A program made the translations under genes and the position numbers. Below are positions 167-23,582 of a stretch of DNA of 64,000 nucleotides, piece after piece. The DNA lies in contig JAJDDK010000002.1 in the NCBI GenBank assembly GCA_029260345.1, positions 1-64,000 of the forward strand, given 5' to 3'. This DNA is from Phycisphaerales bacterium (GTDB lineage: Bacteria > Planctomycetota > Phycisphaerae > Phycisphaerales > UBA1924). The stretch's first letter is position 1. Every line of letters starts with the position of its first letter. The notes under the pieces were generated by a model, which saw nothing but the letters and a program-made list of their open reading frames with translations, was not told the DNA's origin and did no database searches.

Positions 167-373
167 ATGCTTGTCCTATCTCGGAAGATCAACGAGACCA
201 TCATCATCAACGACAACATCGTGATTACGGTAGTCGATATTCGCGGTGATAAAGTGCGACTCGGAATCGACGCTCCGAAGGACGTTCCCGTTCATCGTCA
301 GGAGGTTTACGACGCTATCAAACGCGGCGAAAACGTCGGCGGTGCCCGCCGGGCAGATTCTTCGAACTCTTAA
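167..373 (+). CDS. csrA: Carbon storage regulator CsrA
   Basis: This small RNA-binding regulator is 68 residues long and opens MLVLSRKINETIII, the conserved beginning of the family. The middle carries the GIDAP segment and the tail the conserved VHRQEVYDAI stretch. CsrA dimers bind GGA motifs in mRNA leaders or in sponge RNAs and so control translation of carbon, motility and biofilm genes. I start it at the ATG at 167 because AAGGAGGGG lies at 152-160; a longer frame opens at 83 but has no conserved residues before 167. The HU-like gene follows 14 bases later, so the two are probably co-transcribed. No FliW gene is visible next to it. The last ten residues are not conserved in the family. 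Confidence 0.95.
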   Translation: MLVLSRKINETIIINDNIVITVVDIRGDKVRLGIDAPKDVPVHRQEVYDAIKRGENVGGARRADSSNS

Positions 374-2232: not shown

Positions 2233-3750
2233 TTATGGGGTCCAGTTGGCGAGGAGGTTTGCGGTGTCCACACCATTGACGTACCCGTCGCCGTTGATGT
2301 CCGCGACACAGCCATTGCACTCACCCCACAGCGACAGCAATGTGGCGAGGTCGGCGCCGTTGACCAGCCCGTCTCCATCGAGATCCGCCAGTTGCGACAT
2401 GTTGTAGATCTGCGTGTCGTCGGTGTCGATCTTGCCGTCGTTGTTGAGGTCGTACAGGCTGAAGTTTTCACCAAAATTCGGGACCATCACAATGCCATTT
2501 GCGATCCCGTCGGCGTCCTGCGGCGTGCCGTCGAGTTCGCCGATTGCCGCTTCAAGAATCGTCTCATCGAGTTCGTTCGAAGCGCCGTCGTGATTCAGAT
2601 CCGCGAAATGCCAGTCAAAGCCCAAGTCCGTCCAAACGTACAGTCCAGATTGAATTGAGCTGTACGTGGTGCCGACAATGGCCGTTGCGGTCCATTGCGT
2701 TGGATCAAGGAACTGGCGCAGCTCCATTTCAATCTGCGGAAGGTTGGGAAAACTCGGGCTGATCCAGTCAAGCACAAGCGGGAAGACGACGGGATCATTA
2801 AAAATTGGTCCGCAGCAACCACTGGCCGCCAGCGCGAGATCACGCAGCATCTCGTGAACGCTGGCGTGATTGCTGACGATGCCATCGAGCGGTTGTTGCG
2901 ATTGGCCGGCCAGCATTGCCGCGCCTTCGGCGTCGAGCGGGAACACCAGCGAAACAACCGTTCGATCCATGCTTGGGTCATGTTGAAAGAGGAGATCGAT
3001 TTCGGGGTCATACAGGCCGAAATCGCTGCCGCCGAAGACGCCGGAATAGGAGGCCGTGGCTTGCATGCGCTCCAGGAAACGGCCGCGCACGATCATGGAT
3101 TCGCCCGACTCGAAGATGCCGTTTCCGTTGCCGACTTCCTGACGAACAACAGGTTGAAAGCAGCCGCAGAACACGAATGTCATTTCCGCGCCCGAACGCT
3201 CAAACTGCGGCGATGACTGAAACACGCCGTCGTAGTCATCAGTGCTGTGCGCAACGCGGGCGCCGATTGGCCCGGAGGGGAGTCCGCCAAAGCGCCCGGC
3301 GTTGGCAAGAAAACGGAAGGTGGCGGTGTTTTCAAGTTCGCCGCCGGAGTCAATGTTGTTGTCGAGGTCGATTTCGATGAACCCGTACACAGGCCGGTCA
3401 CCAAACTTGTACGGATCGAAAGCAGCCGCGCCGAGCCCGAGGGGGCCGGGCGGGTTGAAGAGTCCTCGAAGCGTCAGGTCGATGCGAACCAAATGCGCCT
3501 CTGCCGGATCAACCGCTTGTCCGGTGTACGGATTGGTTGCCGGGTTTGCCGCTTCCCATGCAGAGAATCGCAACGACAACAGGTCCGGCAGGGCGTCAAC
3601 GTTGATGTGCTGAGAGCCTGCGTCATCCGTTTCGCGGATGGTCTGGTCGCCGGGGAAATCCGTCCATTCGATGTATCCGTCAGAAGCGAGGACCGTGGCG
3701 CTCAAGAGCAGCGAACCAAAGAGGCCGAATGTCGCGCTGAGCGTTCTCAC
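2233..3750 (-). CDS. Secreted protein with C-terminal dockerin-like repeats
   Basis: This exported protein of 505 residues has a signal peptide (cut probably after TVLA) and a long middle part without recognisable domain. The last ~110 residues hold four Asp/Asn-Gly calcium loops: DLNHDGASNELD, DLNNDGKIDTDD, DLDGDGLVNGAD and DINGDGYVNGVD, the last two each followed by a leucine-rich helix ending in W. This is the planctomycete form of the type I dockerin repeat; a partner cohesin is not visible here. It starts with GTG at 3750, and its first bases overlap the stop of the sigma54-type regulator (GTGA), so the two are translationally coupled. It is the last gene of the prepilin, kinase and regulator operon and may be an output or the sensed surface component. 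Confidence 0.8.
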   Translation of the reverse strand: MRTLSATFGLFGSLLLSATVLASDGYIEWTDFPGDQTIRETDDAGSQHINVDALPDLLSLRFSAWEAANPATNPYTGQAVDPAEAHLVRIDLTLRGLFNPPGPLGLGAAAFDPYKFGDRPVYGFIEIDLDNNIDSGGELENTATFRFLANAGRFGGLPSGPIGARVAHSTDDYDGVFQSSPQFERSGAEMTFVFCGCFQPVVRQEVGNGNGIFESGESMIVRGRFLERMQATASYSGVFGGSDFGLYDPEIDLLFQHDPSMDRTVVSLVFPLDAEGAAMLAGQSQQPLDGIVSNHASVHEMLRDLALAASGCCGPIFNDPVVFPLVLDWISPSFPNLPQIEMELRQFLDPTQWTATAIVGTTYSSIQSGLYVWTDLGFDWHFADLNHDGASNELDETILEAAIGELDGTPQDADGIANGIVMVPNFGENFSLYDLNNDGKIDTDDTQIYNMSQLADLDGDGLVNGADLATLLSLWGECNGCVADINGDGYVNGVDTANLLANWTP

Positions 3751-5234
3751 CGCGCCACCTCCTGTACGAAATCCTCAAGACCGCACCGTTCGATGCGATA
3801 TCGGAAACTGGAACGGTTCATGCCGACGAGGCGAGCGGCTTTGGACACATTGCCCTGCGCTTCGACCAGCGCCTGGCGGATGAGTTCCTTTTCAACTTCG
3901 TCGATGGTGTGAAGGCCGCGATCGAAGTCAAACACAATGTGACCGTTGGCGTCCGCTTTGGCAGCGGCGGGTGAGGTTTGGACGGATGGCATCGGTGTTC
4001 GCAGGCCAAGTCCCAAATCTGTCTCAGTGATGACTTCGTCATGGCACAGCATGACGGCGCGCTGAATCACGTTAATCAATTCTCGAACGTTGCCGGGCCA
4101 GGCGTGATTCTTGAGCGCGATCGCGGCTTCGTCGCCAAACGTCGCGCCGGGACGGGCGTATTCGCGCGCGACTTGTTCAAGCATTGAATTGGCCAGAAGC
4201 ACGACATCTTCATCGCGTTCTCGCAGTGGCGGGATCACAATGGTGAAAGCGCTCAGGCGATAGAAAAGATCCCGCCGGAATCGGCCGGCTTCGATTTGCT
4301 TCTCAAGGAGTTGATTTGTCGCCGCAATGACGCGGGCGCGCACATGGCGCACTTTCGAACCGCCCACGCGCCGGAACGAGCCTTCCTCAAGCACGAGCAA
4401 GAGTTTGGCTTGCAATTCCAGCGGCATCTCGCCGATCTCATCGAGGAAGATCGTGCCGCCCTCGGCAAGTTCGAACAGTCCGGCTTTGGCGGTCTTGGCG
4501 TCGGTGAAGGCGCCTTTCTCGTGCCCGAACAGTTCGCTTTCGACCAGCGCGGGTGGAAGCGCTGAACAATTCACATGAACGAACGGAGTGTCGTCACGAT
4601 TGTCGGTGTTGTTTGTCGCTTTCGACTTCATCCGTTCGTGGCGATCGTGGATGTACCGCGCAAGCAGCCCTTTGCCGACGCCGGTTTCACCGAGCAGAAG
4701 AATGGTTGTGAGTTGCCGCGCCGCAGAGGCCCCGGGGGCGGCGATCGGAATCTCAGCGAAACGATCGGCGATGGTCAGCGTTTCCAGCCAGGCTTCGCTT
4801 TGTCCGATGACGCCGCGCGATTCGAGGCGGCGCTGTTCGAGGCGCTGGTACAGAGCAAGGCGCGAACGCACGCGGCGCTGCTCGAGCGCGCGTTCAATGA
4901 TGATGCTTAACTCTTCGAGGCTGATTGGCTTTTGGAGGTAATCGTCGGCGCCGAGTTTCATGGCTTCGACGGCGTTCTCGACGGTGCCGTAGGCGGTCAT
5001 CACGATGATGGCGCCTTCGAAGCCTTCGGCCCGGAGTTTCTTGACCAGTTCGACGCCGTTGTCGCCGTCGAGATTGACGTCGGTCAGGATGAGATCGAAT
5101 TCGACATCGCGGGTCAGTCGCCACGCATCGGTGGCGCAGTCCGATTCGGCCACGTCATGGCCAGCCCTGGAAAGGCTTCGCACGATTGAGAACCGCAGGT
5201 TCTCCTCATCCTCGATGGTGAGAATTTTCGCCAC
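3747..5234 (-). CDS. Sigma54-dependent response regulator, NtrC family
   Basis: The 495-residue protein has the three NtrC domains. The receiver domain (about 1-120) carries the acidic pair near residue 8, the phospho-acceptor Asp52 in LILTD, and Lys102 in LQKP. The AAA+ domain has Walker A GETGVGKG near 182, the sigma54-contact loop near 241 and Walker B IFLDEIGE near 262. The C-terminus holds a Fis-type helix-turn-helix ([20 protein letters not shown]). The contact loop reads GAFTDA instead of GAFTGA, a variant known in some activators. It overlaps the upstream kinase gene by 29 bases and the downstream dockerin gene by 4. As a sigma54 activator it is the natural candidate to drive the sigma54 promoter at 7835, about 2.6 kb from its start codon and on the other side of its own operon. 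Confidence 0.93.
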
Positions 5235-6729
5235 TGATTACACCATTCAGGTGTTCGCCTGAAGTCTCCGTAGGTTCCACTTTAGGCTGTTCGAGTGGCA
5301 GAACGACGACGAAAGAGGCTCCCAGAGCGGTTTCCTCTGCCGGACCCGCGATTTCCGGCGGCTCCACGAAGATCTTTCCGTAATGACCGCGAACGACCTG
5401 CTGAGCAACTGCAAGGCCGATGCCATGACCGTCGGGCTTGGTCGTAAAGTTCGCCGTAAACACCTTTTCGACGAGATGCGGCGGGACGCCGGGACCGTGA
5501 TCTTTGATTCGGATTCGCCAGGATTCTGAATCGCCGTTTTTATGGGCTTCAAAGTGAACGGTCGATCCCCGCGGCGACATTTCGATCGCGTTGGAGAGGA
5601 TGGCGACGATGGCTTGCTCGAGATGCCGCGCGTCGTAGACCGCGTGCTGAGGCGCCTGCGTGAATTCAGAGGCGATTTCGACGCCTTTGGTCTGTGCCAT
5701 CGCACGATGGGAATCCGCGATGCCGGCGAGCCAGGGGTGAACCTCGTTCCGTGTCGGTTCGATGCGGAGCGGCGTTGTGCTTTGGAGGAGTTCCTTCAGC
5801 CAGCGTTCGAACTTGTCCACCGTCGAAATGATCCGGTCCTGCGTTGAGCGGATGTCGCTGGAGGGGGGCGATTCGGCGCGTGCGACTTCAGCCAGTCCGC
5901 GGATGCCCGCGAGTGGGTTGCGAATGTTGTGCGCTAGGCGGCGAATGACCTCGCCGGCGGCGGCGAGACGTTCCTTTTCGACGCGTTCGCGCTGCATTTC
6001 GTCGATGAGGCCGGCCATGTCGTTGACCTCGGCGCTGAGCCGCGCGAATTCGTCGCGACCATGCACGTCAATGCGGTGGGCGTAATCACCGGCGCCGATG
6101 CGCACCGCGGCGCGGCGGAGTTCTTTGATTGGTCGCAAAATCCAGCGCCGCACGAGGATGAGCCCCAGCACACAGGTCATCAGGGCGAGCAGCAGTCCAA
6201 ACGCCAGGACGATGAGGAGTTGATTCCAGATTTGTTCGCCGTGAGAGACGGCGAGCTGCGCATCGGCGAGCGCTCGGTTGATGACGCGCTGAATCAGTGT
6301 GGCGTCTTCGCGCAGTTCGGATTGAATCAACTCGCGATCGAAGGCTCCGTTCTCAGCGACCGTTCGCAAGTCCTGCGAGGCGCGCGTCATTCTGGCTTCA
6401 ACGGTTCGGGCGGCGCCGGCGCCAAGTCGCTTTCGCGAAAGTTCGTCGTTGAGCAGCGCGTCCATTTCTCGCTGGATGTCGTCAGCGAGGCGCCCGAGGC
6501 GCTCGGCTCGAATAGCGGCAGGACCAGCGTCAGAGGCGAGTGTGACTTCGCCCTGCGTGACGGAACGCTTCAGGTCGTCAAGGTTGGTGAGGACTGACGC
6601 AGTCGCCTGAAACGGGTCTGACAATTCCCGCTGAAACAGCGAAACCGACCAGAGGGCGGCGCCGACACTCACCACGACGCTGAAGCCGATGAGGCTAATC
6701 AGGATCGCAAACTTGCGTTGGATCGACAT
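5206..6729 (-). CDS. Membrane sensor histidine kinase, NtrB-like
   Basis: The 507-residue protein has a first membrane segment at about 8-30, an extracytoplasmic helical sensor region of ~140 residues, and a second membrane segment at about 171-193. A HAMP linker (about 195-247) follows. The H-box is RRLAHNIRNPLAGIRGL with the phosphorylated His267. The ATPase domain carries the G1 box DHGPGVPP, an F-box region and the G2 motif GHGIGLAVAQQ. It overlaps the response regulator by 29 bases and is therefore its cognate kinase. The sensor region has no PAS domain and looks like a four-helix bundle as in chemoreceptors, so the signal is probably outside the cytoplasmic membrane. The gene follows the prepilin gene after 21 bases. 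Confidence 0.92.
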   Translation of the reverse strand: MSIQRKFAILISLIGFSVVVSVGAALWSVSLFQRELSDPFQATASVLTNLDDLKRSVTQGEVTLASDAGPAAIRAERLGRLADDIQREMDALLNDELSRKRLGAGAARTVEARMTRASQDLRTVAENGAFDRELIQSELREDATLIQRVINRALADAQLAVSHGEQIWNQLLIVLAFGLLLALMTCVLGLILVRRWILRPIKELRRAAVRIGAGDYAHRIDVHGRDEFARLSAEVNDMAGLIDEMQRERVEKERLAAAGEVIRRLAHNIRNPLAGIRGLAEVARAESPPSSDIRSTQDRIISTVDKFERWLKELLQSTTPLRIEPTRNEVHPWLAGIADSHRAMAQTKGVEIASEFTQAPQHAVYDARHLEQAIVAILSNAIEMSPRGSTVHFEAHKNGDSESWRIRIKDHGPGVPPHLVEKVFTANFTTKPDGHGIGLAVAQQVVRGHYGKIFVEPPEIAGPAEETALGASFVVVLPLEQPKVEPTETSGEHLNGVISGENSHHRG

Positions 6730-6750: not shown

Positions 6751-7584
6751 TCAATTCGGCGCGAAGCCCCATTGCCAGCCGGCCTCCTCAAGCGGTTGGC
6801 GTGAGGACAGAACATGCCCCCCTATGAATGCCACATTGACCGATCCGTTGTGTCGCTTGCCGGGGAACCAGAATCGGTCGTTGCCATACAAGTATTGCAT
6901 GTCCAGCGTTGGCGTACTGAACTGCGGCGTGTTCACGCCATTCGCCAGCGCGTGGGCGCCGTCCACATCCCACAGAAGAGGGACGTCCGGCGATTCCATA
7001 ATCTCGTGCGTCAGCAGTACGGGTTCTGATTGAATGCCCCAAGGCGCCGTCACCTCAATTCGATTCAGCCGTGCGTTGAAGCCATAGGAGACATTCTGGG
7101 CTGGTCCAATTGACCCCGCGTCGGTGCAAGGCACGTTTCGTGAAATGGTCATGGCGCCGGCGACTTCGGAGCAGCGCATATGGTCGAGCGACTCTCCCGG
7201 TTCAATGGTCACTTGGGCCTGATCACCGTGCGACCAGAATTCATCAATGCCATATTCACTTTCCTGAAACGTGGAGATTCGGAAGCGATTGTTGTGTTGA
7301 GCGTCGGCGCCGCGCGAAGGGTGTATCGCGGGGTCGGCGAAGAGTGCAAAATCAAATGCCACATTCCGAAGCGCCGCTTGGCACTTGAAGCCGCGTGCGG
7401 ACCCAATGGTGCGCTGCAGCGCGGGCGCCAGCAATGAGAGCAGCACCCCGATGATGGCGACCGTGACCATGAGTTCCACGAGGGTGAACCCAAGCGACGG
7501 GCTCGACTGTGAACGAACACCGGCCTGCCCTCGCTGGGCGGGCAAGACAGCTCGAGCTCGAGATGTCGAGGTCGTGACAGTCAC
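6751..7584 (-). CDS. Prepilin-type protein, planctomycete pseudopilin
   Basis: This is a type IV pilin/type II pseudopilin-like protein of about 277 residues. A basic, unusually long leader (about 33 residues) ends at the peptidase site SLG/FTLVELMV, with the conserved Glu at mature position 5, followed by the hydrophobic helix VAIIGVLLSLLAPAL. The C-terminal part has the motif FIGGHV, as in the family with an H-X9-DG signature that is expanded in planctomycetes. The frame is open to a TTG at 7617; I prefer the GTG at 7584 because GGAGG lies 11 bases before it. It is the first gene of the operon with kinase, sigma54 activator and dockerin protein, so the signalling pair may watch the cell surface or its secretion machine. 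Confidence 0.8.
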   Translation of the reverse strand: MTVTTSTSRARAVLPAQRGQAGVRSQSSPSLGFTLVELMVTVAIIGVLLSLLAPALQRTIGSARGFKCQAALRNVAFDFALFADPAIHPSRGADAQHNNRFRISTFQESEYGIDEFWSHGDQAQVTIEPGESLDHMRCSEVAGAMTISRNVPCTDAGSIGPAQNVSYGFNARLNRIEVTAPWGIQSEPVLLTHEIMESPDVPLLWDVDGAHALANGVNTPQFSTPTLDMQYLYGNDRFWFPGKRHNGSVNVAFIGGHVLSSRQPLEEAGWQWGFAPN

Positions 7585-7701
7585 TGGACACGTGTCCTCC
7601 AAAGGAGAGAGCGACAACCGTGGTCGAGTTCGCGCCCATTATTGCACGAGTTGCGGTGAATTGTTCCACCACTTGGCGATTTCCGGGCCCCTGTGTGAAT
7701 C

Positions 7702-7834: not shown

Positions 7835-7851
7835 TTGGCACGAGTCTTGCA
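7835..7851 (+). promoter_or_regulatory. Sigma54 (RpoN) promoter
   Basis: The sequence TTGGCACG-AGTC-TTGCA matches the sigma54 consensus TGGCACG-N4-TTGCA at every fixed position, with the -24 GG at 7837-7838 and the -12 GC at 7849-7850, ten bases apart. It points to the right, away from the sigma54-activator operon, and predicts a start near 7862. No protein gene lies on the plus strand before the convergent mfd. Confidence 0.8.
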
Positions 7852-7861
7852 ATTCGCCTAG

Positions 7862-8310
7862 AGCCGCTTTGTTTTTCGTTTCGGTGTTCGATGCGGGAAA
7901 GCGGCGACCGGCACGGCGCACGGCCCTGATGGAGGGAGGCCCGTGCTCAGGTCGGGAGCATTCCCGGCGCACACGATGCAAAGCAGCGCACTTGGGTATG
8001 CAGCACACTGATGAGGGTTTGGAGGTGGAGAGAGGATTGCGTAGCGCCCGGCCTCGATATGTTTGACCGGTCGCACGAGTGCGTTCCGCTGGATGGGAGA
8101 GAGACAGTGGATGCAGCACGGCCGAATGGGTTCAATCGCCCTTCGGCCGACTCGTATGCAAGAGCTCAGTGAAGTTGGCATTATGCCGTGCTGAGCAACG
8201 GTCGGAGAGAGGTCAACACGCTGTCCTCCTCGCCTGCGGCGTGTGTCACATAGCCCCGTCATACGCCGCGGCGGCAGGGTCGGGAGTCATCCCGGCCCTG
8301 TTCCTTTTTT
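7862..8310 (+). ncRNA. Candidate sigma54-dependent structured RNA, about 450 nt
   Basis: The region between the sigma54 promoter and the intrinsic terminator contains no convincing gene on either strand but many hairpins. These are GCACGG/CCGTGC (7918-7923 with 7941-7946) around an inner stem with loop GATGG, GTCGGGA/TCCCGGC (7951-7968), CGGCCGAA/TTCGGCCG (8119-8126 with 8142-8149), GCTCAG/CTGAGC (8164-8169 with 8191-8196), and GCGGCGTGTG/CATACGCCGC (8236-8245 with 8260-8269). CAGCACGGC at 8114-8122 can instead pair with GCCGTGCTG at 8185-8193, which excludes two of the other stems and suggests two alternative folds. It does not show the signatures of RNase P RNA, tmRNA, 6S or SRP RNA. I count twelve GGA triplets against roughly eight expected, so a CsrA link is only a possibility. 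One 27-codon frame (8111-8194) with a weak Shine-Dalgarno lies inside. Confidence 0.65.
8275..8310 (+). terminator. Intrinsic terminator of the sigma54-driven RNA
   Basis: An 11-bp stem with one G-T pair (8275-8285 with 8290-8300) and a four-base loop is followed by TTCCTTTTTT. The T-tract is on the plus strand only, so it ends plus-strand transcription, not mfd. Confidence 0.85.
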
Positions 8311-23159: not shown

Positions 23160-23211
23160 GGCGGCGATGGTATCGACCGGCGCACGCCGCGCAATTCAAT
23201 GAGGCGCGGCC

Positions 23212-23500
23212 CAAAAAAAGCCCAAGCCAACCATGAAGGTTGGCCTGGGCTTCTGCCACACTCGGCTTGAGGGCCGAATGCGTTGTTCGGTGGTCGGGCA
23301 ATCCACCGGTCCCCCGAGTGACGTGTTCCGTCGCTCGTACCCGTTGAGCGACGTTTTCCCCGCTCCTGTCAACCAGGAGCTTGACGTGTAACCCGAAATT
23401 TCCGGGCTTCCCTCCGCGCCCGGCCCTTCAGCCGAGCGCTTCCACTCCTACCAACGCTCTTAGCCTACCCGAATGGGCTGGGATTCACCAGAGATTCGAC
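23212..23500 (-). ncRNA. Candidate structured RNA between nadK and serS
   Basis: A 445-base stretch without a convincing gene lies between the nadK terminator and a second strong terminator. On the minus strand it folds into several hairpins. The first (23434-23459) is GAGCG-TT/AA-G-CGCTC with loop GGTAGGAGTGG. The second (23402-23423) is CCGGGC/GCCCGG with loop GCGGAGGGAA. The third (23329-23336 with 23346-23353) has an 8-bp perfect stem. Two more lie near the 3' end. I count ten GGA triplets in about 210 bases against roughly four expected, several in loops, as in RNAs that bind CsrA. It lacks the marks of RNase P RNA, SRP RNA, tmRNA and T-box leaders. The 5' end is uncertain because I see no clear promoter. 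A leader that controls serS is the main alternative. Confidence 0.55.
23213..23252 (-). terminator. Intrinsic terminator of the RNA upstream of serS
   Basis: A 15-bp stem with one mismatch (23218-23232 with 23238-23252) is followed on the minus strand by seven T. It ends about 53 bases before the serS start codon. Confidence 0.88.
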
Positions 23501-23582
23501 CTGCTGACCACGAAGAAAGCAAGAATCCTGCAATGCCGCAAGTTTGGTGATATTCACAAGTTGAGCCTTCTTTGACGAGGGC

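Follow-up and report, generated by a model that had tools for sequence, protein, structure and literature searches.

Several bacterial small RNAs, among them GlmY/GlmZ, Qrr and NrsZ, are transcribed under the control of sigma54, which for GlmY is also stated in the title of a cited paper. The response regulators that activate these RNAs belong to GlrKR in the case of GlmY/GlmZ, to LuxO in the case of Qrr and to NtrBC in the case of NrsZ (PMC7602753). In the Pseudomonadaceae, the small RNAs CrcZ and CrcY are encoded next to CbrAB, a two-component system with an NtrC-type regulator that targets a sigma54 promoter (PMC8871633), and in Desulfovibrio vulgaris noncoding RNAs such as DVU2359 and DVU1419 have been predicted as targets of sigma54 activators (PMC4641369). 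NfeR1, or alpha-r14, is an anti-Shine-Dalgarno small RNA that takes part in a regulatory loop with NtrBC; it contains the CCUCCUCCC motif three times, and NtrC represses it whereas LsrB activates it (PMC10746234). Among systems with a protein output, the kinase PrsK and the NtrC-type regulator PrsR are associated with sigma54 boxes that precede exported PEP-CTERM proteins (PMC1569441). A survey of sigma54 regulons in which Planctomycetota are included describes a pseudopilin group and csrA as enriched in Planctomycetia, and its main text does not contain the terms "small RNA", "sRNA" or "non-coding" (PMC12316311). No dedicated study of small RNAs in planctomycetes was seen among the titles of the literature matches listed.

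Here we describe a locus in a 64,000-nt stretch of DNA from a Phycisphaerales bacterium, analyzed as a whole and called the window below, in which a candidate RNA gene is divergent from an operon encoding a prepilin-like protein, a histidine kinase and an NtrC-type activator (Table 1). On balance, we favor the explanation that this locus encodes a small RNA switched on by the neighboring two-component system. The components of this explanation differ in strength: it appears quite likely that the stretch is a real, conserved RNA gene, and the RNA is probably driven from a sigma54 promoter by the neighboring system, whereas its action by antisense pairing through a conserved arm is put forward tentatively, as a possibility.

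The likeness to CrcZ and CrcY lies in a sigma54-type promoter, predicted in the present case, that adjoins an NtrC-type two-component system. CrcZ, however, antagonizes Crc/Hfq, whereas here no Hfq was found, the RNA has no AANAANAA and no Rfam match, and its gene is divergent from a prepilin operon. A preliminary description of this DNA, made from its letters, had proposed a dedicated RNA gene with CrcZ-like logic. The dedicated gene is supported by the predicted sigma54-type promoter and by the NtrC-type activator and kinase in the divergent operon; the CrcZ-like logic would apply to the wiring, as kinase and activator adjoin the RNA both here and in the related genome J020, but is not supported for the function. 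The term "undescribed system", also used in that description, proved too strong, since activation of small RNAs by sigma54-type two-component systems is known from CrcZ, GlmY/GlmZ, Qrr, NrsZ and the Desulfovibrio noncoding RNAs. The last of these resemble the present case as noncoding RNAs with a predicted sigma54 activator outside Pseudomonas, a likeness drawn at the level of control; for GlmY/GlmZ, Qrr and NrsZ, sequence relation was compared through the Rfam search only, which gave no match. With NfeR1 the candidate shares an anti-Shine-Dalgarno seed and an NtrC-type two-component system, but it contains one CCUCC and no CCUCCUCCC, and the control expected of it is activation via sigma54. 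The arrangement typical of alpha-r14, with CCUCCUCCC in each of three hairpins, was found in neither the window RNA nor its J020 counterpart. The kind itself is known; what looks new is this RNA, the group that hosts it and the apparent exchange of output, the RNA occupying a place that in several relatives is taken by a protein gene.

Table 1. Features of the locus, with positions in the window
Feature	Position	Strand	Remarks
Dockerin-like secreted protein (named by eye), last gene of module	2233-3750	-	Beside activator in 18 of 20 relatives' regions
NtrC-type response regulator / sigma54 activator, candidate RNA activator	3747-5234	-	PF00072, PF00158, PF02954; GAFTDA variant
HAMP-type histidine kinase	5206-6729	-	PF00672, PF00512, PF02518
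Prepilin-like gene, first of divergent operon	6751-7617	-	N_methyl PF07963; prepilin-type N-terminus TIGR02532
Prepilin ribosome-binding site GGAGGACACGUG, possible arm target	7589-7600	-	Duplex energy rank 3 of 51
Predicted sigma54 promoter TGGCACGAGTCTTGCA	7836-7851	+	Exact match; expected transcription start near 7862
Candidate noncoding RNA, about 449 nt	7862-8310	+	Fold z = -4.85; J020 counterpart z = -3.49; four ORFs without Pfam match
Conserved 3′ module	8219-8303	+	88% identity over 85 nt with J020
Anti-Shine-Dalgarno-like arm CUGUCCUCCUCG	8221-8232	+	Identical in J020; single-stranded in module alone
12-bp hairpin, conserved loop UCACAUAGCCCCGU	8234-8271	+	3 of 12 pairs vary, all kept
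Intrinsic terminator	8273-8310	+	13-pair stem 8273-8302, T6 8305-8310; 2 of 13 pairs vary, both kept

The divergent operon and its relatives

The candidate activator combines the features by which sigma54 activators are generally recognized, namely an AAA+ domain together with GAFTGA or a permitted variant of it, and its PF00158 sigma54-interaction domain scores 200.8 bits. The motif reads GAFTDA, not GAFTGA, in all 20 sequences in which it was found (22 examined); this form is counted as an activation-competent variant in one account (PMC4641369), and its competence is left open for another protein in a second (PMC10714721). The score of 327.9 bits against TIGR02915, for which the cut-off is 502.6, separates the activator from PrsR, as does an output that here appears to be an RNA. 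A search for rpoN was positive in all of 21 genomes.

Homologues of the prepilin (E up to 1e-10) occur in 26 of the 61 family genomes, and the prepilin-kinase-activator module is recurrent in the family, not universal. The kinase adjoins the prepilin gene at 25 of 29 loci besides the window's own, one of the 29 being a second locus of the source genome. From the 25 kinase-positive loci, 20 larger regions representing 19 genomes were picked, and it is only the counts of the activator and the dockerin-like gene that are new in this set: the activator is present in every region, and the two regions that lack a dockerin-like gene are cut by a contig end. A near-consensus sigma54 box (at least 15.5 of a possible 16.5) stands beside the module in seven of the 20 regions (L078, L079, L082, L086, L087, L093 and L097), either upstream of the prepilin or beyond the dockerin-like gene, and in all seven it is followed by an open reading frame that by eye has a secreted-type start. 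Several of the encoded proteins have FG-GAP/VCBS-like repeats, again as judged by eye. A second prepilin and dockerin-like pair, with no kinase adjoining it within the stretch extracted, was observed in the source genome (L029, C5:350844-351629) and in J020 (L004, C81).

A comparison by blastn of the region with 60 other genomes revealed no relative. By anchoring on prepilin and mfd, a counterpart was found in Planctomycetota bacterium isolate J020, a MAG of another genus, whose mfd is the most similar one in the family search (65% over 268 residues). The intergenic space in J020 is flanked by prepilin and mfd, as it is in the window, and the order of prepilin, kinase, activator, dockerin-like gene and mfd is identical.

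Promoter, fold and terminator of the candidate RNA

According to the preliminary description, the promoter box matches the sigma54 consensus at the fixed bases, and about 0.01 such matches would be expected by chance in the window. Both statements agree with our counts: the box in Table 1 is the sole exact TGGCACG-N4-TTGCA in the 64 kb, and one of 100 dinucleotide shuffles contained an exact match (mean 0.01 per shuffled window). Throughout the 3.4-Mb genome, TGGCACR-N4-TTGC occurs three times, this box included, versus five times for the reversed control, and by inspection the other two matches lie inside open frames. Because the consensus is not enriched genome-wide, the weight of the box at 7836 derives from its position and not from genome counts.

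At the matching place in J020, on the plus-equivalent strand, there is a weaker sigma54-like box, TGGCGCAGGTTTTGCC (TGGCGCA-GGTT-TTGCC), with about 410 nt separating it from the terminator's 3′ end. It retains the GG and GC, has three mismatches to the consensus, and scores 14 of 16.5 with weights that were set by hand after the box had been noticed; no box scoring at least 14.5 was found in the J020 module region. Among the 210,582 positions scored in 28 further mfd loci, six reach the score of the J020 box, which corresponds to about 0.017 per 600 nt on one strand. The search for activator-binding sites returned short repeats only, none of them common to the window and J020.

The candidate RNA is predicted to fold with unusual stability, none of 100 shuffles being equally stable, and none of 100 shuffles reached the energy of the J020 counterpart. 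When the energy gap to shuffles was compared among 160 stretches, comprising 158 background tiles (both strands, with the tile at 8001 excluded) and both strands of the RNA, three had a gap at least as large as that of the RNA, one being the RNA itself and the other two being both strands of the tile at 23201. The strong terminator previously described downstream on the same strand is confirmed. It is notable for the length of its stem and not for the number of such sites, as a simple terminator scan of the window gave four, an ordinary count relative to the 3.5 in shuffles.

No convincing gene had been seen between box and terminator in the preliminary description, and the results of our search for coding capacity concur. 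The Pfam search of four open reading frames from the region gave zero matches, none of the frames in the RNA region has a signal peptide by eye, and comparison with J020 favors no single frame. At the protein level the conserved module matches in several frames of either strand, most strongly in a minus frame (E 4.6e-6), and the module differs between window and J020 by one 1-nt and one 2-nt indel; together, these observations argue against a reading frame. Of the five or more hairpins that had been described, the unusually stable fold is upheld, but sequence conservation is limited to the 3′ module and most of the hairpins are unconserved.

A comparison with Rfam, which had been proposed as a check, yielded no match at gathering score in the window, and a lax search (E up to 5) returned only Rhizobiales-2 and isrO, both sub-threshold. 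Rhizobiales-2 (RF01723) resembles the 3′ part of the candidate in having a CU-rich single strand, a hairpin and a terminator (31.5 bits at 8209-8302), but the score is below the gathering value of 40, with E = 0.1, and the family was absent from the results for J020, where a search at E up to 5 likewise gave sub-threshold matches only. This match is likely to be a chance resemblance of shape.

The conserved 3′ module and its distribution

Only the last 87 columns of the alignment are conserved between the window and J020, and the 5′ domain aligns poorly. The conserved block consists of the single strand CUGUCCUCCUCG, the 12-bp hairpin with the loop UCACA(U)AGCCCCGU, and the terminator. Using a structure drawn from the plus-strand fold and the two sequences, we found that five of the 25 pairs vary and that all of them are kept on the plus strand (50 of 50 cells paired). 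On the minus strand, pairing falls to 81.6% of 49 cells: each of the five variable pairs, three in the hairpin and two in the terminator, fails in at least one sequence, and so do the two invariant G-U pairs. This clear contrast between the strands points to an RNA made from the plus strand. Both sides have changed at one pair only, and a shuffle of the two letters does equally well roughly half of the time; this two-sequence pattern is not covariation in the full sense.

The distribution of the module was examined with R1, a covariance model of the 87-nt 3′ module that was built from the window and J020 sequences, the large genome searches being run with strict filters. R1 matched two of 163 family genomes and three of 400 order genomes. 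The third match in the order (G373, 30 bits) was rejected as a homologue, as it looks like an unrelated terminator just 3′ of an open reading frame for a secreted protein. A strict pattern scan of species genomes returned four stretches, one being J020 and the other three being discarded with a best R1 score of 18.8 bits, and among 32 extracted loci R1 recovered the window's own copy only. The RNA is thus either rare or evolving quickly beyond recognition. Conservation in relatives, by which the preliminary description had proposed to judge the unit, is observed for the 3′ module, the terminator and a weaker box in J020, but not for the 5′ domain, nor beyond two of the 163 family genomes.

A possible mechanism and its alternatives

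In the explanation that we favor, positions 7862-8310 would constitute a noncoding RNA gene read from the sigma54 promoter, and the RNA would be switched on by the divergently encoded histidine kinase and NtrC-type activator in response to a signal from the envelope or from secretion. This expectation is based on adjacency, on promoter type and on the habit of the module in relatives, and not on a binding site. Beside the module in other family members, sigma54 boxes often precede secreted proteins, whereas in this lineage, defined by mfd identity (65%, 268 residues) and listed kinship, the neighboring output would be an RNA. The RNA may then pair antisense, with its CUGUCCUCCUCG arm covering ribosome-binding sites, and a candidate target is the prepilin-kinase-activator mRNA itself, which would result in negative feedback. 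Before its release by a rearrangement or by processing, the arm would be kept in a paired state by the variable 5′ domain. The most specific form of this proposal, an Hfq-independent, sigma54-driven antisense feedback RNA in which the module has swapped its protein output for an RNA whose arm is masked by a fast-evolving 5′ domain, must be considered unlikely in all its particulars. The locus lends itself to testing: the type of promoter and the 3′ module are defined, and there are candidates for both the activator and the target. It also suggests that a two-component system may keep its place and its sigma54 logic while the output next to it shifts from a secreted protein to an RNA.

In the module alone, the predicted unpaired fraction of the arm is 0.83, in the window and J020 alike. 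The full-length fold, in contrast, engages the arm in pairs in both genomes (mean unpaired fraction 0.10 and 0.16), and unmasking or processing would therefore be needed. The arm and the start region of the prepilin gene give a duplex energy of -24.4 kcal/mol, which ranks third among 51 crude open reading frames, and by eye the pairing with the ribosome-binding site comprises GGAGGACA and CGUG, 12 pairs round one bulge. No such arm pairing was seen by eye in the prepilin leader of J020. The leader in the window at 7589-7615 (-) reads CUCUCUCCUUUGGAGG; by eye, this forms a small hairpin that could mask the ribosome-binding site of the leader itself and that was not seen in J020. Besides the arm, the extended arm complement CGAGGAGGACA has two matches in the source genome, one antisense in another prepilin-type frame and one near a short open reading frame; in J020 it has seven sites besides the arm, which by eye lie in long open frames or have no convincing start. 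Neither genome yielded a convincing target in this way. Duplex energies calculated for longer RNAs were set aside as uninformative, competition from the RNA's own fold being absent from them.

The site motif of CrcZ-type RNAs is taken here as AANAANAA, and no such sites are present in the candidate RNA. An Hfq gene was found in none of the 13 genomes searched, the source genome included, by a search that was positive in five of 14 named control genomes. Because Hfq was found in none of these genomes, titration of Hfq in the manner of CrcZ is unlikely.

Several other readings of the locus were considered. Confinement of the conservation to the last 87 columns, together with the weakness of the J020 box, would be expected if the 3′ module were the only selected RNA, either as a short small RNA or as a processed 3′ end, perhaps from another promoter, with the box and the 5′ part being incidental. 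We regard this as rather unlikely, given that in each of the two genomes a sigma54-like box lies at a similar distance and in the correct orientation and that both full-length stretches fold below their shuffles. The same block could also belong to mfd on the minus strand, as its 3′ end or its terminator, since the mfd stop codon directly precedes it in either genome; the T run, however, is present only on the plus-strand side, and the failure of the variable pairs on the minus strand likewise makes an assignment to mfd highly improbable.

The seven relatives' regions with a box ahead of a secreted-type open reading frame raise the question of whether the sigma54 transcript might instead be the mRNA of a secreted protein that is small or decayed, its structured 3′ end representing an untranslated region and terminator. 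Such an mRNA is quite improbable in view of the four frames without Pfam match or visible signal peptide, the indels and the multi-frame, best-on-minus matches of the module, and folds that lie far below shuffles in both genomes. It would also be conceivable that the two-component system makes an RNA that titrates CsrA. CsrA-like genes are present in 21 of 21 genomes, with three in the source genome, one of them at window 167-322 (+), and GGAG occurs eight times in the window RNA versus 3.8 (41 of 2000 shuffles, p 0.02). The window RNA nevertheless has 12 GGA versus 9.6 expected and two ANGGA versus 1.7, and the J020 RNA has ten GGA versus 9.4 and no GGAG, such that the excess of GGA and ANGGA characteristic of a CsrA sponge is not observed, and we judge this role improbable. 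GGAGRGAG repeats, which were picked post hoc, were rejected, as the best 8-mer family was reached by 12 of 200 shuffles and the repeats are absent in J020. In number, the CsrA matches amount to three in the source genome and one or two in the 20 relatives searched, one of which has a third, partial match.

Finally, a second structured stretch was observed in the window at 23205-23540 on the minus strand, with a stronger fold (z -5.53) and a perfect terminator just before serS (start 23159). Its match in Rfam is sub-threshold only. DNA matches to this stretch occur in five of 61 genomes, the source included, and serS adjoins in three of the five; it is possibly a serS leader or attenuator, or an independent noncoding RNA.
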